Virus record (IMG/VR): IMGVR_UViG_3300009618_000014
Coordinates: 1-39,813 of that record
DNA length: 39,813 bases
Origin: a virus
Direction: 5' to 3' (one strand)
This document shows positions 8,967 through 39,705 of the stretch, one piece after another. The first letter of the stretch is position 1, and each line of letters starts with the position of its first letter. The position numbers were made by a program, and so were the translations under genes. Under the pieces are notes generated by a model. The model was not told where the DNA came from and made no database searches. It saw only the letters and a list, made by a program, of their open reading frames with translations.

Positions 8967-9446
8967 ATGAGCCTGCCTATACGCTTCGAGAAGGTGGACT
9001 CCCGCTACTACCGCAGCGGACGCCCCGCCCTCAGGGACTACGAGGAGCTGGCCACCAAGGTCAGGTCCATCGTCAACCTGGAGGGGCATAGCCAGGCCTC
9101 CGCCGAGGTAGAGGCCTGCCTCCCCTACATCATCGAGCACCTCTGGTTCCCTATCAGCGTGGAGCAGATATACATGGAGGGGGTGCCGCAGCCGCTCCTG
9201 GACTGGGCGCTGAACTCCATGGATAGCCTCCCGACCCCGGTGCTCATCCACTGCCAGCACGGGGAGGACCGTACCGGGATGGTGGTGGCCATAATACGCA
9301 TCCGCTCGGGATGGAGCTACGGGGATGCTATTAAGGAGGCTGTCTCCCACGGCTACCGCCAGCTACTCAACCGGGGGCTGGACGAGGTCCTGGAGAGGTA
9401 TGCCGCTTGCCTTGGGGACAAGGCCAAGGACGGGGAGCAGGGATGA
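8967..9446 (+). CDS. Tyrosine / dual-specificity protein phosphatase
   Basis: 159 residues. The active-site loop is clear: HCQHGEDRTG at about residues 93-102, matching HC-x5-R-T/S with Cys94 as nucleophile and the following Arg binding phosphate. The N-terminal YYRSGRPALRDYEEL...VRSIVNLEG is the usual start of bacterial and plant-type dual-specificity phosphatases (the region before the general-acid loop). The length is normal for a compact domain, so the enzyme looks complete. It would remove phosphate from Tyr/Ser/Thr residues or possibly from inositol phosphates. It sits directly behind the capsid gene, after the terminator, and its stop overlaps the next start (ATGA). A poor ribosome site (GGGGC) suggests low expression. 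A host-takeover or virion-packaged role is speculation. Confidence 0.85.
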   Translation: MSLPIRFEKVDSRYYRSGRPALRDYEELATKVRSIVNLEGHSQASAEVEACLPYIIEHLWFPISVEQIYMEGVPQPLLDWALNSMDSLPTPVLIHCQHGEDRTGMVVAIIRIRSGWSYGDAIKEAVSHGYRQLLNRGLDEVLERYAACLGDKAKDGEQG

Positions 9447-21051: not shown

Positions 21052-21642
21052 CTATACCCCCCTGCCCCTGAGCACATGGGAGACGGTGACCGCCAGCAGC
21101 AGCAGGTCGTAGGCAAGCCCCCTGCGGCGGCGGTAGCAGCGGTGCAGGCGCACCTCGTACCCCCTCCCCAGCGAGTTGACCCTCTCCCGCCCCACGAGCT
21201 GGGACAGCCCTGTGATGCCGGGGGGCATGTCCAGGCAGTCGGAGTAGCCGGGCACCGTCCTGGACAGGTGCTCGGCTATGCCGTACTCGTCCGGCCGTGG
21301 GCCGACCATGCTCATGTCGCCCACGAGGACGTTCCAGAGCTGCGGCAGCTCGTCCAGGTGGGTGCGCCGCAGCAGCCACCCCAGCGGGGTCACCCTGGGG
21401 TCGCCCCTCTCCACCAGGTCCAGCCTGCGGGCCGAGCCGTTGCGCATGGTCCGCAGCTTGTACATGGTGAAGGGCCTGCCGTGCCTGCCCATCCGCTTCT
21501 GCCTGAACAGGGCGGGCCCGGGGGAGGTCAGGCGCACGGCGGCGGCCAGGGCGGCAAGGAGCGGGGACACGGCCGCCAGCAGCAGCACGGCCAGGGCCAC
21601 GTCGAGCGCCCGCTTGGCATGGTAGTACCTGGCGTCCGCCAC
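21052..21642 (-). CDS. Initiating sugar transferase (monotopic phosphoglycosyl transferase)
   Basis: 196 residues from GTG 21642, with GGAGGG before it; an upstream in-frame ATG lies inside the neighbouring gene. It has the full compact bacterial sugar-transferase domain: KRALDVALAVLLLAAVSPLL as membrane re-entrant helix (10-36), LTSPGPALFRQKRMGRHGRPF (38-58), MYKLRTM (60-66), the catalytic Asp-Glu dyad in THLDELPQLWNVL (Asp97, Glu98), GDMSMVGPRP (108-117) and PGITGLSQLVGR (141-152). Enzymes of this family (PglC/WbaP-like) move a sugar phosphate from a UDP-sugar onto undecaprenyl phosphate and so start O-antigen, capsule or glycoprotein glycan synthesis. The minimal length without a four-helix N-terminal region resembles PglC. 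It may provide the first step for the glycan cassette at 32951-38372. Confidence 0.88.
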   Translation of the reverse strand: MADARYYHAKRALDVALAVLLLAAVSPLLAALAAAVRLTSPGPALFRQKRMGRHGRPFTMYKLRTMRNGSARRLDLVERGDPRVTPLGWLLRRTHLDELPQLWNVLVGDMSMVGPRPDEYGIAEHLSRTVPGYSDCLDMPPGITGLSQLVGRERVNSLGRGYEVRLHRCYRRRRGLAYDLLLLAVTVSHVLRGRGV

Positions 21643-21653
21643 TATCCCTCCCC

Positions 21654-21920
21654 CTAGCGTGGGTGCGGCCCCCCTGCGCAGTAGCATATGGCCCTGCCGC
21701 TCGCCCTCGCCTTCCTCAGGCGCTCCTCCCTGCGGGCCTCGGCCGCAATCTGGTTCGCCCGGTTCCACATCTGCGCCCAGGATATGCTGACCTCGTGCCT
21801 GCACCCCTTGGGGCGCAGCCTCAGCCCCCATGCCTCCACGTGGGCCACCATCAGGCGCTTCCCCACGAGGAGCGGCGTCTCCAGGCACAGCTTGGTCTTG
21901 CGCCTCAGTATGCTGGTCAT
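21654..21920 (-). CDS. Small basic conserved-type phage protein
   Basis: 88 residues. The N-terminal half is beta-type (TKLCLETPLLVGKRLMVAHV EAWGLRLRPKG), followed by a helix (SWAQMWNRANQIAAEARREER) and a Cys-containing basic tail. From memory, the combination 'LRPKG-R-E...S-..IW..A...AAE..R.ER' occurs in small unannotated phage proteins. It begins in an ATGA overlap with the preceding membrane microprotein gene. The function is unknown. Confidence 0.7.
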   Translation of the reverse strand: MTSILRRKTKLCLETPLLVGKRLMVAHVEAWGLRLRPKGCRHEVSISWAQMWNRANQIAAEARREERLRKARASGRAICYCAGGPHPR

Positions 21921-29658: not shown

Positions 29659-31683
29659 ATGCCCAGCGCAGGCAGGTTCAGGAGGGGAGAGGGCTTCATC
29701 AGCAAGTCGGTGGAGGAGAGGGGGATATCCGTCCCCCACGAGACCCTCAACGCCGTGGACTTCATAGAGTCCCACCGTGGCCTGAGCGTCAGGCTCTTCC
29801 CCGTCCAGCGCCTCATCATAAAGTGCGTGTTCGGCGTCCCGATGGATTACAAGGAGAAGAAGGTCCCCCTCTACGACGTCTTCCGGGAGCGCCTGCTCAC
29901 CACGGTCACGGAGTCCGAGGCCCTGCATATCTTCCACGAGGAGGGGCGCTGCAACATAGGGGACTGGCGGGACATCCCCGAGAGGGGGTACAACGAGGCC
30001 TGCATCATCGCTGGCCGCAGGGGGGGCAAGTCCCAGCTAGTCAGCGCCATGGCGGCATACAAGCTCTACCTCCTCCTCAACTTCCGCAGCCCCCAGGAGT
30101 ACTTCGACCTCGTCCCGAACTCCCACATAGACTTCACCTTCCTGGCCCAGGACGAGGAGGGGTCGGACCGCCTCTACGACAAGCTGCGTGAGGACGTCAA
30201 CCGGGCCCCCTTCTTCGCCCCCTTCTTCAAGGCAGGCACCGGCACCTGGATGGGGTTCATCACCGAGTCCGACCGTGGCAAGAGGGATGTCACCCCCACC
30301 GTCAACGTGGACTCCCACCCCTGCACCACCCGCTCCGTGCGCAGCCCCAGCAGCCTTATGCTGGCCCTGGACGAGTTCGCCCACTTCCGGTCGGAGAAGG
30401 GTTCCACCTCGGACGAGGTCTACCAGGCGGCCACGCCCAGCACCCTCAACTTCCACCATGCCGAGCTGCTGAACGGCTCCTGGATAAGCCAGGAGCAGAT
30501 GAAGCACCTCGACCCCCCGCAGTACAGGGAGTTCCAGGACTCGCTCATCGTCAGCATCAGCTCCCCCTGGACCAAGGTCGGCAAGATGTACGACCTCCAC
30601 AGGCTGGCCCTGGACAAGGGGAAGGACTCCAGCATCTTCACCCTGAGGGTATCGACGGCGGAGATGAACCCCACCGTCCTCCCCAAGATACTCCACGAGG
30701 AGCACGAGAAGAGTCCGATGACGTTCAGGGCGGAGTACGGGGGGCAGTTCCTCGACTCCTCCGAGACCTACGTCACCGAGGCCACTATCCGGGCATGCAC
30801 GGACGTCAGGTACACCGAGGGGCCCGACCCCAAGCCCATCCCCGAGACCGCCCGCCTCAACCTGACGGTCTTCGCCCCCTCCTGCATCGGCCGGCAGTAC
30901 TTCTGGGGCCTGGACCTGGGCATGATGAGGAACGCCACGGCGGTCGCCATCGGGCACCTGGAGCACGTCGGGGGCAAGAACCCCCTGATGCTGGTGTACG
31001 ACTACATCGACCGCATGATGGTCGGGGAGAGGTTCGAGGGGCCCGGGGTGGAGGCGGTGCCCGGCGCTACCAAGTACGTCGGCTACCGGGCGCTGCCCCT
31101 GGAGGACATCGTCCTCTGGCTGCGGGCGCTCAACCGGGTCATGCCCTGCTTCCGTGGGGCCACCGACCAGCACGGCGGGCAGCAGCTCGTCCAGCTATTG
31201 GAGATAAACGAGATATACAATATCGAGCTGCTCAACCTCACTACCATTATAAACTCCCAGATGGCCTTCGCCCTCAAGGGGTACATGGACAACACCAGGT
31301 GCAGGTTCCCCTACGTCCCCAGGTTCATGCACGAGCTGAGGACGGTGGAGGCGGAGTACGTCGGCAAGTACCAGATTAGGGTCCAGGCACCCCCGGAGAA
31401 GGGGGCCACGGACGACATGTGCGACGCCGCCGAGGAGGTCGCCTACGTCGCCCAGAAGTGGCTGATGGACGAGGGGGGCCTGCACGTGGACCCCTCCGGG
31501 GCCAGCCTCGCCATCCAGGAGCAGATGCAGAAGCCGCCCGCCCCCCTCATGTCCCTGGACGGGGTAAGCATGACGGACATCAAGGTCATAGAGCGGATGC
31601 GCAGGCTACAGAGGGGGCTGATGATGTCCCCCGGCACGGTGGTGGTGGCCAACCCCTTCCACCGGAGGACGAGGCTGAGGTAA
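29659..31683 (+). CDS. terL: Terminase large subunit (DNA packaging ATPase/nuclease)
   Basis: 674 residues from ATG 29659, with GGAGGGG and CATATAGG just upstream; the open frame further left is antisense to the small-gene block. ATPase: Walker A AGRRGGKS (118-125) and Walker B LMLALDEF with catalytic Glu (233-240), followed by a coupling motif SISSPW (299-304). RNase H-like nuclease: FWGLDLG (415-421), a further acidic site near TDQHGG, and DDMCDA late in the domain. Both domains look intact and the length is at the long end for phages. Terminase pumps concatemeric DNA into the prohead through the portal. A small subunit is not evident in the window. Confidence 0.93.
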   Translation: MPSAGRFRRGEGFISKSVEERGISVPHETLNAVDFIESHRGLSVRLFPVQRLIIKCVFGVPMDYKEKKVPLYDVFRERLLTTVTESEALHIFHEEGRCNIGDWRDIPERGYNEACIIAGRRGGKSQLVSAMAAYKLYLLLNFRSPQEYFDLVPNSHIDFTFLAQDEEGSDRLYDKLREDVNRAPFFAPFFKAGTGTWMGFITESDRGKRDVTPTVNVDSHPCTTRSVRSPSSLMLALDEFAHFRSEKGSTSDEVYQAATPSTLNFHHAELLNGSWISQEQMKHLDPPQYREFQDSLIVSISSPWTKVGKMYDLHRLALDKGKDSSIFTLRVSTAEMNPTVLPKILHEEHEKSPMTFRAEYGGQFLDSSETYVTEATIRACTDVRYTEGPDPKPIPETARLNLTVFAPSCIGRQYFWGLDLGMMRNATAVAIGHLEHVGGKNPLMLVYDYIDRMMVGERFEGPGVEAVPGATKYVGYRALPLEDIVLWLRALNRVMPCFRGATDQHGGQQLVQLLEINEIYNIELLNLTTIINSQMAFALKGYMDNTRCRFPYVPRFMHELRTVEAEYVGKYQIRVQAPPEKGATDDMCDAAEEVAYVAQKWLMDEGGLHVDPSGASLAIQEQMQKPPAPLMSLDGVSMTDIKVIERMRRLQRGLMMSPGTVVVANPFHRRTRLR

Positions 31684-32567: not shown

Positions 32568-32954
32568 ATGATTATAAAGCACTTGACAGCACTCGACACC
32601 AAGGCGGCCGCCGATGGCACCTGGACCTGGGTAGGCAACTGGTCGGCCATGTCCGTCCATATCGTAGGGCTGGAGGGGGACGTCTGGGTGGAGGTCTCGA
32701 ACGACCCGGCCGCCGACCCGGCCCGCTATGCCAGCCCCCCCACCATACCGGAGGGGTGCGACATCACCGGCAACCTCACCTCCGGCGGCTCCCCCCCGGC
32801 CATCGTCGAGGAGGTCAGCATCGCCTACAGCCGGGACGGCACGCAGGTCATGGTCAGCCCCTCTGCCCTGGTATGGAAGTGGCTCCGTGTGTGCAAGAGC
32901 GGGGGGGGCGCTACCGATACCGTCGCCTACCTGATGGGCCAGGTGGAGGCCTAG
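32568..32954 (+). CDS. Beta-rich small protein, putative virion decoration
   Basis: 128 residues from ATG 32568 with GGGGAGAG. Pattern: TWTWVGNWSAMSVHIVGLEGDVWVEVSNDP... ALVWKWLRVCKSGGGATDTVAYLMG, i.e. paired strands with 'VEGSNDP'-like and C-terminal 'RVxxSGG...VxxMGQ' elements that I associate with small phage head or tail decoration beta-sandwiches. No signal peptide. The stop shares a CTAG with the convergent pyruvyl transferase gene. Confidence 0.65.
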   Translation: MIIKHLTALDTKAAADGTWTWVGNWSAMSVHIVGLEGDVWVEVSNDPAADPARYASPPTIPEGCDITGNLTSGGSPPAIVEEVSIAYSRDGTQVMVSPSALVWKWLRVCKSGGGATDTVAYLMGQVEA

Positions 32955-33793
32955 CCCGTGAAGGGGTGCATGGCGCACTCCAGGAACCGCAGGTAGTCCT
33001 CCCGCAGCCTCGGGGCACCTACCGGCTCCGGCCTTCCCAGGGCGGCAGGCGGCAGGCCCCCTTCCCTCCCTACCACCTTGACTCCTACCTCGCCGAGGAT
33101 GCTGGTACGGTCGTCGTCCGGGCCGACGTACACGACCGGCGTCCCGAACGCCACGCAGGGTAGGGCCGCATGCAGGCGGGACGTGAACACCAGCTCCGCC
33201 CTGCGGTACCGTGCGAGGAGGCCGTAGGCCTCCCTGTACTGCCCTGCCACCGTCTCCTCGCTGGCCTCCTCGTAGGAGAAGGGGGGGAGGGTATGGGACA
33301 CGGCGACGGCGTCCCCGTAGGCCCCGGACACCGCCCTGTAGACCTCCTCCCCCGTGTCAACGCAGAACACCCCCTCCCTCTTCCCCTGGTACGGCGGCAG
33401 GGTAAGGGTGGCGCACCCCACCAGGACGGAGGGGAGGCCGTGCCTGCGGAGGAACCCCTCCGTGGCCGGGTCCCTGCACCCGACTATGCCGCAGGGCCTT
33501 ACCGCCTCGGCCGTCTCCGTGGTCCGGCAGAAGGGGGCTATATGGATGCCCACGTACCTGACGTCACGGAACCAGTCCCTCCTGGGCATGCCGTAGAACG
33601 CCATCCACCCGTTCGCCAGCAGGACCAGGTCCCCCTGCTCCGTCAGGTGGTCCCGTGGCACGAGCCTCCGTGGGGCCACGTGCTGGAGCAGGGCAAGGGT
33701 CTGGATATGGTCCCCCAGGTTGTGGTTGAAGTACGAGAGCACGCAGAAGGGCGAGTCGTCGTCCAGGGCCATCAGTTCTTCGAGGCTTTTCAT
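32951..33793 (-). CDS. Polysaccharide pyruvyl transferase family protein
   Basis: 280 residues. Near the N-terminus SYFNHNLGDHIQTLALLQHV matches the 'N.GD.iQt.A' start of the family. The middle has GIVGCRDPATEGFLRRHGLPSVLVGCATLTLP ('RD..T...L...G......DP/ATL'), and the C-terminal part has ELVFTSRLHAALPCVAFGTPVVYV ('TSRLHA...A...G.P...'). Enzymes of this family add a pyruvyl ketal to sugar residues of cell-wall or exopolysaccharides, or act on related transferase reactions. The protein is slightly short but all segments are present. It is the last gene of the glycan block, separated from the GT6 fusion by two hairpins, so it may be controlled separately. Confidence 0.82.
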   Translation of the reverse strand: MKSLEELMALDDDSPFCVLSYFNHNLGDHIQTLALLQHVAPRRLVPRDHLTEQGDLVLLANGWMAFYGMPRRDWFRDVRYVGIHIAPFCRTTETAEAVRPCGIVGCRDPATEGFLRRHGLPSVLVGCATLTLPPYQGKREGVFCVDTGEEVYRAVSGAYGDAVAVSHTLPPFSYEEASEETVAGQYREAYGLLARYRRAELVFTSRLHAALPCVAFGTPVVYVGPDDDRTSILGEVGVKVVGREGGLPPAALGRPEPVGAPRLREDYLRFLECAMHPFTG

Positions 33794-33950: not shown

Positions 33951-35648
33951 TTACCTCACCAGGAACAGCACCTTCTTGCCCTGCGGCGTATCTACCACCT
34001 CCTCCAGGTGCTCCGGCATCGTCTTGCGTAGCTGCATATGGTAGGACGACCCCATAGGGCATACCGCTGCCACCCTGAACCCCCTGGATACCGCATGGTT
34101 GACCTTGTTCCCCAGTATGGTGCTCTGCCAGTCCGACCTCGGCGGGGGGGCAGGAGGGCGCTGCGGCACGGGGCGCTGGGGGATAGTGGGGCGCTGGGCT
34201 GGCGGCCGCTGGACCTGCACGGGGCGCTGGGGCCCGGGGACGGGCATGATTATCGGGACTGGCCGGGGCGGCACGGCCGGGGGCCTGGGCGGGAAGGGCT
34301 TCCTCCCCGTCAGCATGTCGTGGCACTCCTCCATGTCCCCGGCGCTCGGGAGCTGTGTCACCACCACCGTATCCTTGCTGATTATCTTCTGGAAGGGGAC
34401 CTGGTTCCTGTGCGGGTCGAGGAACGGGGGGATAAGGTACCCAGGGAGGGGCTTCAGCCTTATGCCCGCCTTCCCTAGCACCTGCCCTACCCACCTGTCC
34501 TCCGCCCAGTCCCCGTAGAAGGGGGCGTCGGCCACCATCCCCATCGCCTTCCTGGAGAGCCAGTATGCCCCGCCGCTGGCGTAGTCGTACCTGATGGTCC
34601 CGTTGGGCAGCGGCGGGATTCCCATCGCCACGCTGCCGCAGTCGTTCCTGGGCAGGAACAGCCCGGCATAGTCCTCCCTCGGCACCGCCAGGTTGGCGAC
34701 GTTCACGTAGCAGTCGTCGTCCGTCTTCATCATGCTGTCGTAGCCCTTCCCCAGCGCCCACCCGCACAGGGCCTTGGTCTTGAGCGGCAGGGACAGGTAG
34801 TCGTCCGGTACCCCCAGCTTCTCCCCGTCGAAGGCCACGACGTCGTAGCCCGCCGCCTCGGCGGCCGGCACCCACGTCTTCCTCTGTATGGCGAGCCTCT
34901 CCCTGTACCTCGGCTGGCCGCAGGTCACGATGGCTATGAGGGCGTTCTTGCGTGCCTTCCACCTTGCCTGGTCGGGCTTCTCCAGGTGCTTTATCTTCGG
35001 GGAGAAGGCGGCAGGGCTTACGGTCATCCAGCGCTCCGGGTGCCTTATGGCCCTGGGGTCCGGGTAGGCGTATGCGGGGGTCAGGGCCCTTGCCGGGGGA
35101 TGGTCCAGGAGGTAGCGGTTGAGGTGCGACTCGTCGTGCCATACCGCCGTTATGCCCTTGGCCTTGTCGGCGTCTATGCTCGCCGCCAGCACCCTGCACA
35201 TCTCCAGGAAGGGGTCTGTCCTCCCCCCTTGCAGGCACCCCTGGTAGTAGGCGGGGTCCCCCTCCACATAGGCCGTGGACTCCCTCCTCCTCTCGAAGGT
35301 CCCTGGGTACCCTGGGTGGATGACGGCCGTTATGCCGTCCGAGAAAAGCTCCTCCTCCGTCACCCTCTGGCATGCCAGCATGTCCACGTCCAGGTACAGG
35401 AGGTGCTCGTAGCCCCGCAGCGCCTCCTCCTGCGACAGGAAGGCATGGTAGCGCATCAGGGAGGCCCCCGGCCACCCCAGGTCCGCCCAGGGGGCCTTCG
35501 TGACGCCCCCGAACTCCTCCTCGCTGTCCGTGAACAGGATGACGTCGTGGGGGGGGAAGTTCTCCCTCAGGGAGGCCACGAGGGGGGCCACGAACTTGGT
35601 GTACCTCTCTCCCCCGGTCGCAATCAGCAGTATCGCCAGCTTATGCAT
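33951..35648 (-). CDS. Fused glycosyltransferase: GT6 (ABO-like) + GT31-like domain with proline-rich linker and extra tail domain
   Basis: 565 residues. Residues 1-215 are a GT6-type domain: LIATGGERYTKFV (8-20), a YLDVDM metal site (85-90), HPGYPG (111-116), WHDESHLNRYLL (170-181) and the following PAYAYPDP, the same landmarks as in ABO and alpha-1,3-galactosyltransferases. Residues 235-410 are GT31-like: RERLAIQRKTW (249-259), TDDDC (309-313), YASGGAYWLS (356-365) and the WAEDRWVGQ equivalent of the 'EDVxxG' motif (381-389). A Pro/Arg/Gln linker (452-503) leads to a C-terminal about 60-residue domain (SDWQSTILGNKVNHAVSRGFRVAAV). GT6 enzymes add alpha-1,3-Gal or GalNAc, usually to fucosylated galactose; GT31 enzymes commonly add beta-1,3-Gal or GlcNAc. 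Bacterial GT6 studied so far mostly have NxN in place of DxD; here DxD is kept. The gene overlaps the upstream methyltransferase-like gene by eight bases. Confidence 0.87.
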   Translation of the reverse strand: MHKLAILLIATGGERYTKFVAPLVASLRENFPPHDVILFTDSEEEFGGVTKAPWADLGWPGASLMRYHAFLSQEEALRGYEHLLYLDVDMLACQRVTEEELFSDGITAVIHPGYPGTFERRRESTAYVEGDPAYYQGCLQGGRTDPFLEMCRVLAASIDADKAKGITAVWHDESHLNRYLLDHPPARALTPAYAYPDPRAIRHPERWMTVSPAAFSPKIKHLEKPDQARWKARKNALIAIVTCGQPRYRERLAIQRKTWVPAAEAAGYDVVAFDGEKLGVPDDYLSLPLKTKALCGWALGKGYDSMMKTDDDCYVNVANLAVPREDYAGLFLPRNDCGSVAMGIPPLPNGTIRYDYASGGAYWLSRKAMGMVADAPFYGDWAEDRWVGQVLGKAGIRLKPLPGYLIPPFLDPHRNQVPFQKIISKDTVVVTQLPSAGDMEECHDMLTGRKPFPPRPPAVPPRPVPIIMPVPGPQRPVQVQRPPAQRPTIPQRPVPQRPPAPPPRSDWQSTILGNKVNHAVSRGFRVAAVCPMGSSYHMQLRKTMPEHLEEVVDTPQGKKVLFLVR

Positions 35649-36204
35649 TTCTCTTCTCTTGGAACGGGCGGTGCGCCCTTGCTATGTCGTCCTGCACGTA
35701 GAAGGACCAGTCCGGATGGGCGTCCAGCAGCCTCCTCCTTATGTCCTCCACGGGGGGATAGTCCTTCGCCGTGCCGAAGGCCCGCATGTCGTCTATGACG
35801 ACCACGATGTCGTCCCTCCCCCACCCCAGGATGGCGTCCAGCTCCCCCTGGATGGCGCTGTCCTGCGGGCCACGTGCCGTCCTCCCCTCCGACCAGTGGG
35901 CGTCCAGCCAGAACACCGCTGGCCTTCCTATGCCGTGCAGGATGCAGGGCAGGACCACGGCGCTGTCCCCGTGGAAGAGGTGGACGTTGGGGCACCCTGC
36001 GAACCTTTGCAGGCAGAGGCCGTAGAAGAAGTCGGACAGCTCTATGGAGTAGACGTCCCTGAAGAACCACCTGGTGTACTCTATCGTGTCCCCGTCGCAG
36101 GAGCCTGTCTCCACCAGGGTGTCTATGCCCGCCCTGAGGGCGTACTCCACGAGGGTCCACCGCTTGTACTCGCCTGGGGGCGAGGGGTTATGCCATGCTC
36201 CCAT
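35641..36204 (-). CDS. Class I SAM-dependent methyltransferase-like protein
   Basis: 187 residues. TLVETGSCDGDTIEYTRWFF (about 29-48) is the glycine-rich SAM site, VYSIELSDFFY (51-61) the acidic strand-2 end that binds the ribose, NVHLFHGDSAVVLP (73-86) motif II, and PAVFWLDAHWSEGRTARG (95-112) plus VVVIDDMRAFG (134-144) the later strands. This arrangement is common for small methyltransferase-like proteins in glycan gene clusters, where they may methylate sugars. The start lies in the middle of the glycosyltransferase operon with overlaps of 17 bases upstream and 8 downstream. The exact substrate is unknown. Confidence 0.78.
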   Translation of the reverse strand: MGAWHNPSPPGEYKRWTLVEYALRAGIDTLVETGSCDGDTIEYTRWFFRDVYSIELSDFFYGLCLQRFAGCPNVHLFHGDSAVVLPCILHGIGRPAVFWLDAHWSEGRTARGPQDSAIQGELDAILGWGRDDIVVVIDDMRAFGTAKDYPPVEDIRRRLLDAHPDWSFYVQDDIARAHRPFQEKRNA

Positions 36205-36895
36205 CTTTCCCCCTCCTGAAGCCCAGCACCCTCTCGGGGTCCAGGCCCTTGCCGTGCCCGAGGTGGGACAGCTCTGCCACCCATGCCCCCATCCCCGTTA
36301 TGCGGTGGTAGTTTATGCCGTTCCTCCGCATGATGTCCCCCACCCACCAGTCCTCTGCCCACAGGTCCATGGGGGCGTCCAGCAGCAGCCCTGCGGCGGC
36401 GGCGGTCAGCCAGTAGCCGTGCGCCCCCCAGATGGCCTCGTCGCCTGGGTTGCACGTCCCGGCGTACTGGTGCCCCTCAAAGCCGCTGCCCCTTATGCCC
36501 TCCCAGTCCAGCACGTAGCTGTCGGCCACGAACTGGAGGCAGTGGGTGTACCCCCGCTCTAGCTGGAACCTGGTAATCTCCTTCTTCTTCCACGGGAGGG
36601 CGATATAGGCGTCGCAGCAGCCCACCTCCACCTCGTCGGGCAGGAGGGGCCTCCCCATCTCCTCCCTGGAGAAGAACCCGTGGAACCTCCTCCCCCTCTC
36701 GTCTATGAACCCGTGCTTCTTGCAGTCGTCCAGGAAGCGGTCGGTGAGAGGCTCCAGCGGCACCTCCCCCGGCCTGCCCACGAAGAGGAACAGCGGCCAG
36801 GGGCACCCCCTCCCCCATGTGTCCCTTATCGCCTGGTGTACCCCGGTCATGGCGAACTTCACGCAGGAATGCACTGCTACGAACGGTCTCAGCAC
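36188..36895 (-). CDS. GT31-like glycosyltransferase
   Basis: 235 residues from GTG 36895, overlapping the fucosyltransferase stop by seven bases. VAVHSCVKFAMTGVHQAIRDTWGRG contains the GT31 hallmark R/Q-x-AIR-x-TW (22-27), followed by PLFLFVG. YWLTAAAAGLLLDAP and LWAEDWWVGDIMRRNGI (179-195) match the late 'EDVxxG' region. At the place of the usual DDD metal motif it has FVADSYV (122-128), so only one acidic residue remains; catalysis may be metal-independent or altered. It resembles the second domain of the 33951 fusion, suggesting duplication. Probable function: transfer of Gal or GlcNAc in glycan assembly. Confidence 0.75.
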   Translation of the reverse strand: MLRPFVAVHSCVKFAMTGVHQAIRDTWGRGCPWPLFLFVGRPGEVPLEPLTDRFLDDCKKHGFIDERGRRFHGFFSREEMGRPLLPDEVEVGCCDAYIALPWKKKEITRFQLERGYTHCLQFVADSYVLDWEGIRGSGFEGHQYAGTCNPGDEAIWGAHGYWLTAAAAGLLLDAPMDLWAEDWWVGDIMRRNGINYHRITGMGAWVAELSHLGHGKGLDPERVLGFRRGKDGSMA

Positions 36896-37722
36896 TTTAG
36901 CCACCTCTCCGGCACGATGTCCCCGGTGTCGAGCCTGGCCATCGGCCCCATCCATACGGCGGGGGCCACTACGGTCCTCCCCGCCGCCCAGTCCCCCAGC
37001 CATGCGCCCCACCACGAGAAGGAGCTGTTGGCGACGACGGCGTGCCTGCACAGGGACATCAGCCACAGGTCCTCGTTCTCCCTGCCCGGCATGCCGGAGC
37101 CGAACAGCCTCCCTCCCGGCCTGTTGTGCCCGACCACCCTGAGGCCCGGGAACGCCTCCCTGCACCACTCCGGCTCGTCCGAGAAGACGAAGAAGCGGGC
37201 GTCCTCCACCCTCTCCCTCACCAGGGCCATGGCGGGGGGGTAGTACCCGGTGTCCCAGAGGTTGCGGTGGTACTCCGCCTGCTTCAGGTAGTCCGTCCTG
37301 CGCACGTGCAGGAAGGCGCTCCTCCTCCCGGCCGCTGCAATCTCGTCCGCCGCCCTCCTGGAGGCCTCGCTCGGGCTGCGGCACGTGGAGAACCAGGACC
37401 TTACCAGCGGGGGGTCGTCGTAGTACCTCTCCGTCTGCCAGTAGCCGTCGAACAGCACCCCGTCCGGCACCGTGTAGACCTGGGGGTTGAAGGAGAAGGG
37501 GTCCTCGTGGTAGACGCCCGTGCCCGCCCTCCCGCCCGCCCCGAACACCGCCGTGAACTCCACGGGGATGTCGAACACCCCCAGCATGTAGCAGCGCTTG
37601 TGGTCCGAGTCCGCCCCGTCCCTGGCGAAGCACAGCCTCTCCCCCCTCCTCGCCGCCACGGAGCGCCCGAAGGCGTACTGGAACATCTGGTTCCCCAGCC
37701 CCCCCACCAGCCTTACTATCAC
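36889..37722 (-). CDS. GT11 alpha-1,2-fucosyltransferase
   Basis: 277 residues from GTG 37722 (GTGA overlap with the upstream stop). The family signature is excellent: RLVGGLGNQMFQYAFGRSVA at the N-terminus (4-23), FLHVRRTDYL (137-146, the H-x-R-R-x-D GDP-fucose site), FFVFSDEPEWC (177-187) and VVANSSFSWWGAWLG (229-243). The length is typical of bacterial FutC/WbwK-type enzymes. It transfers L-fucose from GDP-fucose to the 2-position of a terminal galactose, which creates the H-type structure that GT6 enzymes normally require as acceptor. It is flanked by a GT2 gene and a GT31-like gene in an overlapping operon. GDP-fucose would have to come from the host or from phage genes outside this window. 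Confidence 0.93.
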   Translation of the reverse strand: MIVRLVGGLGNQMFQYAFGRSVAARRGERLCFARDGADSDHKRCYMLGVFDIPVEFTAVFGAGGRAGTGVYHEDPFSFNPQVYTVPDGVLFDGYWQTERYYDDPPLVRSWFSTCRSPSEASRRAADEIAAAGRRSAFLHVRRTDYLKQAEYHRNLWDTGYYPPAMALVRERVEDARFFVFSDEPEWCREAFPGLRVVGHNRPGGRLFGSGMPGRENEDLWLMSLCRHAVVANSSFSWWGAWLGDWAAGRTVVAPAVWMGPMARLDTGDIVPERWLKC

Positions 37723-38372
37723 AGCAGCGTCCCCCCCGTGGCCCCCTCTACCTCCTCCCACGGCACCTCCACGAAGGAGGGCGAGGGCACCCGCTTGGGG
37801 GCGGCGTTCCTGGGGTGTATGGTGGACACCAGCAGCCCCAGGTCGTTCAGGTCCCTGTGCCTCTCGGGGGGAATCCTGCGCTGGAAGCTGGTGTCCGCCC
37901 CCTGCGGCAGGTCGTCGAACCTGCCGGCCTCCCATACGGAGCGCCTGAAGGCCGGGGCGGCCAGCCACCACCCCTTGGTCATGTTCCTGTACACGAACGC
38001 CCGCCGCTGCCCGTGGAGGTAGTAGTACAGCCTCCCCGTGCCGCAGATGTCTACCCCCGCCTCGTTCAGGGGCGCTGCCTGCCTCGACACCCTGTCCGGG
38101 GCGTACCAGTCGTCGTCGTCCCATACTATGGCCGCCAGGCCCGTGGAGGACTCCATGGCACGGTTCATCAGCGCCCCGTGCCTGAGCCTGGGCCCGGGCA
38201 GCCTTATGTACCTTATGCGGGGGTCCTGCGGCAGGAGGTCCTGGATAGGGTCCGAGCCGTTGTCCACTATCACCCACTCCAGGCTGGGATAGTCCTGCGA
38301 GAGGAAGCACCTCAGGCACCGGGGCCAGAACTCCCTGCGGTCCGCCGTTGGGGTGATGCAGGATACGAGCAT
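37719..38372 (-). CDS. GT2-family glycosyltransferase
   Basis: 217 residues from ATG 38372 with GGGGGGTAG. VSCITPTADRREFWPRCLRCFL (3-24) and YPSLEWVIVDNGSDP (28-42) form the GT-A nucleotide-binding start; AALMN..ESSTGLAAIVWDDDDWY (about 68-90) provides the DxD motif (DDDD 85-88). FVYRNMTKGWWLAAPAFRRSVWEAGRFDDLPQGADTSFQRR gives the later acceptor-side segment with a catalytic-base-like Asp. It is short but complete for a cytosolic GT2. It would add a sugar early in the glycan chain. It is the first glycosyltransferase after the endonuclease VII-like gene. Confidence 0.85.
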   Translation of the reverse strand: MLVSCITPTADRREFWPRCLRCFLSQDYPSLEWVIVDNGSDPIQDLLPQDPRIRYIRLPGPRLRHGALMNRAMESSTGLAAIVWDDDDWYAPDRVSRQAAPLNEAGVDICGTGRLYYYLHGQRRAFVYRNMTKGWWLAAPAFRRSVWEAGRFDDLPQGADTSFQRRIPPERHRDLNDLGLLVSTIHPRNAAPKRVPSPSFVEVPWEEVEGATGGTLL

Positions 38373-38374
38373 CG

Positions 38375-38800
38375 CTACCCCCCTGCCCCCCTTCTCCTCC
38401 GCTCGAACGCTTGCAGGTACCCAAGCAGCTCCCTTATGACTATCTGGTTCCCCTGGAAGCACCCGACTCCTGCCTTGCACCTGGAGCACAGCAGGCCCCT
38501 TACCTCCCGAGTAGCGGGGTCGTGGTCCACGTGCGACGCCCTGCGGTCTCCGTGGGGGATAGGCTCGTGGCATACGGCGCACCTCCTCCTCTGCGCCTCC
38601 CAGAGGGCCAGCAGCTCGCTGTCGGCCATGCCCTGGCGGTACTTCCGGGTATAGGCGGTGCCCTGCTTCCTGGAGCATTCCCGGCAGCGGCTCCTCCTGC
38701 CGCTCGGGTGGTAGGAGGACCCTCCGAACCTGCCCAGGTCCAGCCACGCCCGGCATCCGGGGCACCACTTCTCCCTGTCCGTATAGAGGCGCTTCCTCAT
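38375..38800 (-). CDS. Recombination endonuclease VII-like HNH protein
   Basis: 141 residues from ATG 38800; a GTG at 38839 lacks a ribosome site. An N-terminal zinc site (KWCPGCRAWLDLGRFG...SRCRECSRKQ, about 13-44) precedes the endonuclease VII signature: RCAVCHEPIPHGD...SHVDHDPATREVRGLLCSRCKAGVGCF (about 73-115), with the HVDHD catalytic His/Asp, a C-x2-C pair and the 'LLCxxCNxxxG' end (here CK instead of CN). T4 endonuclease VII resolves branched DNA before packaging; free-standing relatives also act as nicking or homing nucleases. It heads the glycan operon and faces the divergent adhesin gene. A resolvase for packaging is as likely as a mobile nuclease. Confidence 0.82.
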   Translation of the reverse strand: MRKRLYTDREKWCPGCRAWLDLGRFGGSSYHPSGRRSRCRECSRKQGTAYTRKYRQGMADSELLALWEAQRRRCAVCHEPIPHGDRRASHVDHDPATREVRGLLCSRCKAGVGCFQGNQIVIRELLGYLQAFERRRRGAGG

Positions 38801-38931
38801 GCTAATGCATCCGGAAGTCAGTTTGCCTTGCGGGGGCACCGGGCAGCTAATCTGGCAGGGGGGGCTGAATGTTCAGTCTACCGGCCCCCTATTTAGAGGC
38901 ATGCCCCGCTAGGGCACAGGAGAGGATTGAC
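38801..38931 (+). other. Divergent intergenic control region
   Basis: 131 bases between the minus-strand glycan operon and the plus-strand adhesin-domain gene. It contains an inverted repeat CTGAA-TG-TTCAG (38865-38876) nested within a G-run/C-run stem (38857-38862 with 38885-38890), a CTATTTAGAGG tract (38889-38899) that could be a -10-like or late-promoter element, and GGAGAGG before the ATG. The nested inverted repeats would suit an operator or an RNA structure. No copy of the GAATCCC motif is present. Confidence 0.45.
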
Positions 38932-39705
38932 ATGGCACTAAGCATCTTGCAGTTTGCACGCAACTACACCGTATACCCCGAGGTCCCGCTCCAGGTATCC
39001 CTTCCCAGTCCCACGACTGCCAAGAGCCTCCTGGCGCTGCTGGTCTTCGGACACCGCACCAACTATGGCTTCAACATCGGAAGGGAGAGCGCAGAGACAG
39101 TGGCCCCCGTCATCACCGACGACAAGGCCAACACCTGGACCCTCCTTGAGTACATCCTCAACATCGCACAGGACTACGGAACCAGCCCGCCTGTCATCTC
39201 TCCTGACGCCTCTGGGAACTTCCCGAGCGTCTACCTGTACGTGGCCCCGTCCAGCGGCAGCCTCAAGAGTGGCGGCGTCACTGCCTGGGTCACCGACGCC
39301 GGGCTGAGCAACGCCAGCGTCTCCCCGCCCATAGAGTACGGGAGGCCCGTCTTTGACAGCGGCATCAGGGCGGTCCTTCTGGAGTGCGCAGGCACCACGG
39401 GGGCACCGGGCACGCAGACGGCGGTGGACGTCCACGGCAACACCATCACCGCCAATGCCAAGCTGGGCTACCAGCTCATCAACCCCAGCAACAACAACGA
39501 GCTTATCATCGAGGCGGGGGCGCTCATCGACAGCTCCGCCCTGGGCCTGGGCACGGGGGCCAGCTACGTCACCTCCGCCTCCTACCCGGCAGGAAGCTCC
39601 TACTGGCTCGTCCAGCAGACCCTACAGGGGACCAAGGCCAAGAGCGCCGGGTTCTCCAACCCCATAGGGTACATGGGCGCAGCAGCCGCCGTGGCGCTGA
39701 GCTAG
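38932..39705 (+). CDS. Stand-alone adhesin-like virion domain protein
   Basis: 257 residues from ATG 38932 with GGAGAGG; the longer open frame starts upstream of the likely promoter. VSLPSPTTAKSLLALLVFGHR, WTLLEYILNIAQDY, PSVYLYVAPSSGSL and IRAVLLECAGTTGAPG correspond in order to the segments of the domain inserted twice in the Ig protein at 13205 (SVTLT-S-P-TAGNTLLV, W.., FLLEIQGTP). The sequence is Ser/Thr/Ala-rich, beta-type, without signal peptide. Codon use is close to the capsid gene, suggesting high expression. It is followed by a strong hairpin. Probably a virion surface or fibre component that binds carbohydrate; no named family. Confidence 0.7.
   Translation: MALSILQFARNYTVYPEVPLQVSLPSPTTAKSLLALLVFGHRTNYGFNIGRESAETVAPVITDDKANTWTLLEYILNIAQDYGTSPPVISPDASGNFPSVYLYVAPSSGSLKSGGVTAWVTDAGLSNASVSPPIEYGRPVFDSGIRAVLLECAGTTGAPGTQTAVDVHGNTITANAKLGYQLINPSNNNELIIEAGALIDSSALGLGTGASYVTSASYPAGSSYWLVQQTLQGTKAKSAGFSNPIGYMGAAAAVALS

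Follow-up and report, generated by a model that had tools for sequence, protein, structure and literature searches.

The window, the whole 39,813-base stretch of DNA analysed here, makes up a whole virus record and features a minus-strand operon of sugar enzymes. The order in the operon is endonuclease VII, a GT2 glycosyltransferase, GT11 (the alpha-1,2-fucosyltransferase family), a GT31-fold protein, a methyltransferase-like protein and a 565-residue GT6-GT31 fusion. From the GT2 gene onward the gene ends overlap by 4 to 17 bp, and a polysaccharide pyruvyl transferase gene follows after a gap of 157 bp. The operon represents a recurrent phage cassette of these sugar enzymes, and the gene set is taken as more than chance because it recurs together in other phages. 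A glycan-assembly cassette with a fucosylated branched product is given slightly better than even confidence, and an ABH-type (blood-group-like) linkage in that product is likely. The cassette behaves as cargo; it occupies one slot between the terminase gene and a conserved gene, and the enzyme sets in the slot differ in close relatives.

Recurrence, fusions and the cargo slot

The viral scan, made with the fusion protein, gave 79 loci (the best 80 of 255 were kept), and the bacterial genome scan kept the best 80 of 151. Both scans used patterns that include WHDESHLN and are therefore biased to GT6 proteins close to that motif, and the adjacency counts cover the fetched DNA, at most 10 kb per side, in records many of which are fragments. 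In 62 of the 79 viral loci a GT11 gene on the strand of GT6 lies no more than 2 kb away, and in 44 the distance is at most 20 bp. GT6, GT11 and GT31 are found together on one strand in 17 of the 79 loci, and GT2 is also present in 16 of these 17. The 17 loci come down to about 14 lineages: L003-L005 all belong to the window's own phage, and one GT6 is shared by L006 and L007. Clustering of the GT6 domains at 90% identity leaves 61 clusters, of which 43 have GT11 within 2 kb and 17 have GT31. Pfam searches over whole records, 50 of them with GT6 (47 from the GT6 scan), found GT11 in 45 and GT31 above its cut-off in 21. The first-pass annotation had made its pathway depend on the GT6 and GT11 assignments and on the genes not occurring only singly in related phages; the profile assignments hold, and the counts above reveal genes that are not merely carried singly. 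In bacteria, too, half of the 80 loci (40) have GT11 no more than 2 kb from GT6.

The association was also determined in relatives that were chosen by the major head protein and not by GT6. This set consists of 37 records of at least 20 kb, mostly short fragments; G003 (L007) was left out as derived from the GT6 scan, and G022, which is the window's phage, lies outside it. GT6 is found in 7 of the 37, GT11 in 8 and GT31 in 10, and all seven GT6-bearing records also hold GT11 and GT31. Fisher's exact test for GT6 with GT11 gives 7.8e-7 for the 37 records, 1.8e-5 when three near-identical GT6 records are merged, and 1.1e-4 without the window's own phage. For the 15 records of at least 90 kb the values are 0.0014, 0.0047 when merged, and 0.010 when the window's phage is also removed.

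The enzymes are fused in several orders. The window's protein features GT6, GT31, a proline-rich linker and a small C-terminal domain (CTD), and the order is GT31-GT6 in L009, L010 and L011, GT6-GT2 in L016, and GT31-GT6-GT2 in L032. The methyltransferase-like (MT) domain is found in GT2-MT (L006), MT-GT2 (L009) and GT2-MT-GT6 (L021) fusions. Such repeated joining of one set of domains in varying order is good evidence that the enzymes would share one product.

The slot is bordered on the left by the terminase large subunit (29659-31683, plus strand, in a reading frame open from 29434), assigned by PHROG 2 (5.1e-9) and synteny. The right border is a plus-strand gene at 38869-39705 with no function assigned; homologues take this position in G002 (57% identity) and G008 (45%). 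In G002 and in G001, the 127-kb parent record of the window, the cassette lies between the terminase plus three small genes and the 38869-type gene. In G008 the slot encodes a protein in which the CTD accompanies two Gly_transf_sug (GT32-type) stretches; a methyltransferase-like gene and others are also present, and a GT11 match is found further on from the slot. The G008 slot also holds two PEP-CTERM surface-protein signals (L178 16937-17530 and 17708-18355, minus strand; coordinates of the first gene map, since a second gene caller picked antisense frames). After the terminase of G081 there are two GT11 genes, a Gly_transf_sug-CTD protein, methyltransferases, GT31 and an epimerase, in a stretch that stops short of the right border. 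Six more distant relatives showed no cassette families in about 10 kb after the terminase, save one GT2 gene in G010.

The CTD (33951-34136 in the window, minus strand, stop codon included; pLDDT 71-85 by blocks, with few aligned rows) recurs in glycosyltransferases of differing architecture, found in the window's phage, G002/G003, G008 and G081. It is retained while the catalytic modules that precede it change, and on this basis the CTD may be a docking piece. The linker before it (34137-34301) is defined by its sequence and a low pLDDT. At the other end of the operon, the endonuclease VII gene (38375-38800, minus strand, HNH-type) matches Pfam PF02945 (5.2e-14) and PHROG 2633, and a homologue adjoins the cassette in G002, where it is a neighbour in L192. 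A gene of this type is also found at the cassette edge in L006 and L010, and it might aid movement of the cassette.

Enzymes of the operon

The GT2 gene (37719-38372, minus strand, as are all the genes described in this section unless noted) matches PF00535 (1.3e-19) and is separated from endonuclease VII by 2 bp. The GT11 gene (36889-37722) overlaps it by 4 bp and matches PF01531 (4.4e-18; 66 bits against a cut-off of 23.9) and PHROG 2644 (2.6e-45). A search of the PDB with GT11 gave chance matches only. In PHROGs, GT11 falls into phrog_2644 and GT6 into phrog_3317, both of them phage families. A second GT11 gene in G001 (L164 5586-7034, plus strand) is fused to a methyltransferase-like domain with a weak match below the cut-off. 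The pyruvyl transferase (32951-33793) matches PF04230 (PS_pyruv_trans, 1.3e-12). The GT11, GT6, GT2 and pyruvyl transferase genes named by the first-pass annotation, in or beside the overlapping operon, thus all have Pfam matches above the cut-offs. The methyltransferase-like gene (35641-36204) that it listed is indeed present and overlaps its GT31-fold neighbour by 17 bp; the family label is tentative, because there is no Pfam match and weak, sub-cut-off methyltransferase matches are found in only two of seven homologues tested.

The fusion (33951-35648) overlaps the methyltransferase-like gene by 8 bp. Its GT6 domain, residues 1-225 (34974-35648), matches PF03414 (1.3e-21; 77.1 bits against a cut-off of 25) and is of the DXD type, with DVD and the HDE of the catalytic Glu present. 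Of 75 distinct phage GT6 domains, 73 feature DXD and the other two DxC, and HDE is found in 74. The 80 bacterial GT6 loci divide into 27 with DXD and 53 with NXN or NXT. A quick GT6 tree places the NXN group on one side of a branch with a support of 94 (the program's mark is 95); the phage domains are opposite the NXN group and intermixed with bacterial DXD lineages (9 changes). Dependentiae/Babeliales or Chlamydiota account for 14 of the 27 bacterial DXD loci, and genes of this type from Dependentiae, Babeliales and Chlamydiota genomes include L201, L207, L213, L224, L225, L239 and others. Only two bacterial DXD GT6 proteins were known to PMC3961637.

The nearest solved relative of the window's domain is Bacteroides ovatus GT6a (BoGT6a; phmmer 1.8e-28), which shares the GT6 domain and the HDE motif. 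BoGT6a is, however, an NXN enzyme and metal-independent according to PMC3961637, in contrast to the DXD of the window and of the 73 phage domains. BoGT6a is reported to yield A-antigen-like products on 2'-fucosyl-lactose (PMC3961637). The human ABO transferases also belong to GT6 and match the window's domain with phmmer values of 1.4e-18 and weaker, but they are remote in sequence and have no GT31 fusion. Human FUT1 and FUT2 are GT11 enzymes and thereby the family counterpart of the window's GT11. The ABO transferases and FUT1/FUT2 are single-domain Golgi enzymes.

The two GT31-like domains that the first-pass annotation proposed fared differently. The fused domain (GT31a, 34446-34958) is supported by Pfam PF01762 (9.4e-6; 26.0 bits against a cut-off of 23) and has an intact DDD in MKTDDDCYV. 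The second protein (GT31b, 36188-36895) starts with GTG and overlaps GT11 by 7 bp; it has no GT31 match in Pfam and no match in a search of the PDB. The assignment of GT31b is supported instead by profile convergence, since iterated profiles gather an identical set of 30 ORFs whether started from GT31b or from the fused domain, and by the model fold. AlphaFold2 models were made of GT31b (mean pLDDT 82, 16 sequences) and of residues 228-565 of the fusion. Foldseek places B3GNT2 at the top for GT31b, with an E value of 1.9e-9 and TM of 0.52-0.59 at 8-10 A (the first 24 rows, all B3GNT2 entries). VIA-align gives B3GalT5 a Z of 15.3 (196 residues, 4.2 A) and B3GalT6 a Z of 15.0; this lead is modest because unrelated folds score Z 12-13.5. 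The model thus points to a GT31-type fold for GT31b. For the fused domain the best Foldseek E value is 1.9e-10, and the first 36 rows consist of B3GNT2, B3GalT5, B3GalT6, C1GalT1, chondroitin synthase and fringe, all of which are presumably GT31 proteins.

Proposed glycan, its fucose donor and its destination

In the proposed pathway, GT2 and the two GT31-fold enzymes would build a short backbone. GT11 would then transfer alpha-1,2-fucose from GDP-fucose onto a terminal galactose, as expected from its family, and the GT6 domain would place alpha-1,3-Gal or GalNAc on that fucosylated galactose to give an A/B-type branched end. This end is suggested by the GT6 family and by the repeated occurrence of GT11 and GT6 as a pair. 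The glycan could be capped by methylation and pyruvylation.

Some phages may also supply the fucose donor. A match to PF16363 (GDP-mannose-4,6-dehydratase type, GMD) of more than 400 bits is found in 9 of 17 GT6 records versus none of 10 others, and the GMD-type gene lies 8 bp to about 7.1 kb from GT11 in all nine. All three proteins tested (L011, L012 and L015) pass the cut-off of the gmd model TIGR01472. GDP-L-fucose synthase is the best NCBIfam match of the neighbour in L011 and L015, with 291-298 bits, below the cut-off of 500. By profile, some other cassette-bearing phages encode the predicted step from GDP-mannose to GDP-fucose. Among head-protein relatives, a strong GMD match is found in two near-identical records of six with GT6 versus none of eight without (merged p 0.38), and any PF16363 match in five of six versus one of eight (merged p 0.03).

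Several points weigh against a fucosylated branched product. The GT2, GT31 and methyltransferase families have many roles, and the order of enzyme action is guessed. GT31b may be weak or inactive, because alignment shows that the first Asp of its DXD is replaced by Val and only the second Asp is kept. G001 has no GMD match, which would leave the host or missing sequence as the source of GDP-fucose, and the GMD excess is confounded with lineage (seven of the nine records lie outside the listed head-protein relatives, and G011 and G012 are near-identical). No GT6 match is found in 30 of the 37 head-protein relatives, or in 8 of the 15 of at least 90 kb. This scarcity, like the slot contents that differ between close relatives, would suit a loose cargo, in which unrelated glycosyltransferases have gathered in a hotspot and have no common product; that explanation is nevertheless quite unlikely in view of the repeated fusion of the same domains and of the link between GT6 and GT11 among relatives picked without regard to GT6. 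A last point is a Bac_transf gene in the window (21052-21687, minus strand), the catalytic part of a polyprenyl-phosphate sugar-1-phosphate transferase, which points to a lipid-linked envelope glycan. It matches PF02397 (8.4e-51) and NCBIfam TIGR03025 (9.1e-66, below that model's cut-off), and it lies amid small minus-strand genes 11 kb from the cassette.

The Bac_transf gene is one of the features that favour remodelling of the host envelope, where a lipid-linked host oligosaccharide would be extended and brought to the surface by the host flippase and ligase, so that the receptor is changed and other phages are excluded. The pyruvyl transferase is another, as such enzymes are typical of exopolysaccharide and cell-wall polymers, and the PEP-CTERM signals of the G008 slot are a third. 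Envelope remodelling is also the authors' reading of cyanophage sugar genes in PMC9602691. On the other hand, Bac_transf is found in 2 of 18 GT6 records versus 1 of 12 others (four of these 12 untested for GT6), and an initiating transferase was consequently dropped as a fixed component of the cassette. The flippase family PF01943, the one flippase family searched, is found in none of 27 records versus 13 of 14 control genomes. Envelope remodelling is given somewhat less than an even chance.

The flippase result gives a slight lean to decoration of the virion, where cytoplasmic phage enzymes would glycosylate capsid or tail proteins. This destination, which comes close to an even chance, is consistent with a slot that adjoins terminase and with a CTD that could serve as a docking piece on swapped enzymes. 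Mycobacteriophages have been reported with glycosylated capsids (PMC11256854), and the chlorovirus PBCV-1 offers a precedent with fused, virus-encoded multi-domain glycosyltransferases and its own GMD/GMER (PMC7826918, PMC5408694). PBCV-1 differs from the phages described here in being a eukaryotic algal virus with other enzyme families and known capsid N-glycans. The Bac_transf gene stands against virion decoration.

A third destination, the phage genome itself with a hydroxymethylated base as acceptor, is very improbable. Phages do glycosylate DNA, and T4 is the precedent. However, a match to the thymidylate synthase/hydroxymethylase family is found in only one of 27 records (G006), the DNA methylases of the parent record are ordinary ones, and GT6, GT11 and GT31 are not known to be among the DNA-glucosylating families.

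The phage, its relatives and known systems

The window is a piece of a jumbo-phage type genome. Longer records of 52 to 127 kb are identical to the window over the genes compared, which identifies the window as a fragment. G001, G022, G023 and the window are near-identical, as are G002 and G003, and G011, G012 and G014. The major head protein shares 68.6% identity with its Tunturiibacter phage Tunturi_5 counterpart and 33% with the one in Bacillus phage G, and head-protein relatives sit on contigs of up to 463 kb. Tunturi_5 has a genome of 308,711 bp, infects Tunturiibacter psychrotolerans (Acidobacteriota) and is called a jumbo phage in PMC11924767. Ten window genes are matched with their order kept within one 50-kb piece of Tunturi_5, and the homologous head, protease and terminase genes are largely collinear. 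The resemblance in head protein and gene order suggests an Acidobacteriota host for the window's phage.

Unlike the window, Tunturi_5 showed no GT6, GT11, GT31 or CTD over the 111 kb of its 309 kb that were searched, and no PF16363 match over its whole genome. It is also not among the GT6- or GT11-matching phage records listed (60 of 71 and 60 of 102). It does have a small sugar set of its own, consisting of gp300 (pyruvyl transferase-like) and gp301 (GT2/GT7C-like). The gp300 gene itself (L170 8959-9726, plus strand) is annotated as a galactosyl transferase, yet in Pfam it matches polysaccharide pyruvyl transferase (1.4e-8). Tunturi_5 is rearranged at the position of L168 1954-2685 (plus strand), and the claim is therefore restricted to the cassette not being found in Tunturi_5. 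The gene at L168 1954-2685 was initially equated with the sigma factor gp3 of Tunturi_5, which was rejected; the true homologue is gp346, with 54% identity. The L168 protein matches Pfam sigma-70 region 4 (2.2e-6), though gp346 is annotated as an exonuclease. In the window, the plus-strand gene at 8967-9446 follows immediately on that of the major head protein and is dual-specificity-phosphatase-like (Y_phosphatase2, 4.8e-12). PHROGs gave matches for just 3 of 20 other window genes tried (protease, head protein and terminase), and a DNA similarity search with the operon against phage records gave no match.

The first-pass annotation knew of no described phage pathway of this kind; isolated cyanophages weigh against novelty in that form. 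The T4-like cyanophages Bellamy, S-8S55, B23, S-PRM1 and DSL-LC02 (Synechococcus phages among the matches listed) have neighbouring GT11 and GT6 genes on one strand by coordinates, and the annotation of cyanophage ACG-2014f names both families. These cyanophages, which were compared for GT11 and GT6 only, differ, with protein identity of about 27-36%. Published work already describes GT6 in 'two cyanophages' (PMC3961637) and, in cyanophage S-SCSM1, GMD, GDP-fucose synthase and alpha-1,2-fucosyltransferase (PMC9602691). The four-family cassette, GDP-fucose genes in the phages described here, GT6-GT31 fusions and the swapped CTD were not found in searches of open-licence PubMed Central papers.

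A broader and, as a whole, rather doubtful proposal joins these features. A swappable and sometimes self-sufficient pathway of GDP-fucose synthesis, GT11, DXD-type GT6, GT31 and GT2 would coat the virions of large phages, jumbo phages of soil bacteria included, with branched glycans of a blood-group-like kind. In the window's group the shared CTD would act as a docking domain passed from one catalytic module to another, and the sugar coat would thereby be exchangeable at a constant delivery site. Tunturi_5 and Tunturiibacter are a laboratory virus-host pair with related structural genes that is available for comparison. If the glycan-assembly reading of the cassette is right, the DXD-type domains would be a source of metal-dependent GT6 enzymes outside animals, and the single-chain GT6-GT31 enzymes would perhaps be useful for the synthesis of blood-group oligosaccharides. 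That reading would also provide a testable reason for the variable glycosyltransferase islands in large phages, and it would mean that some bacterial viruses, like chloroviruses in algae, bring a pathway for a complex fucosylated sugar.

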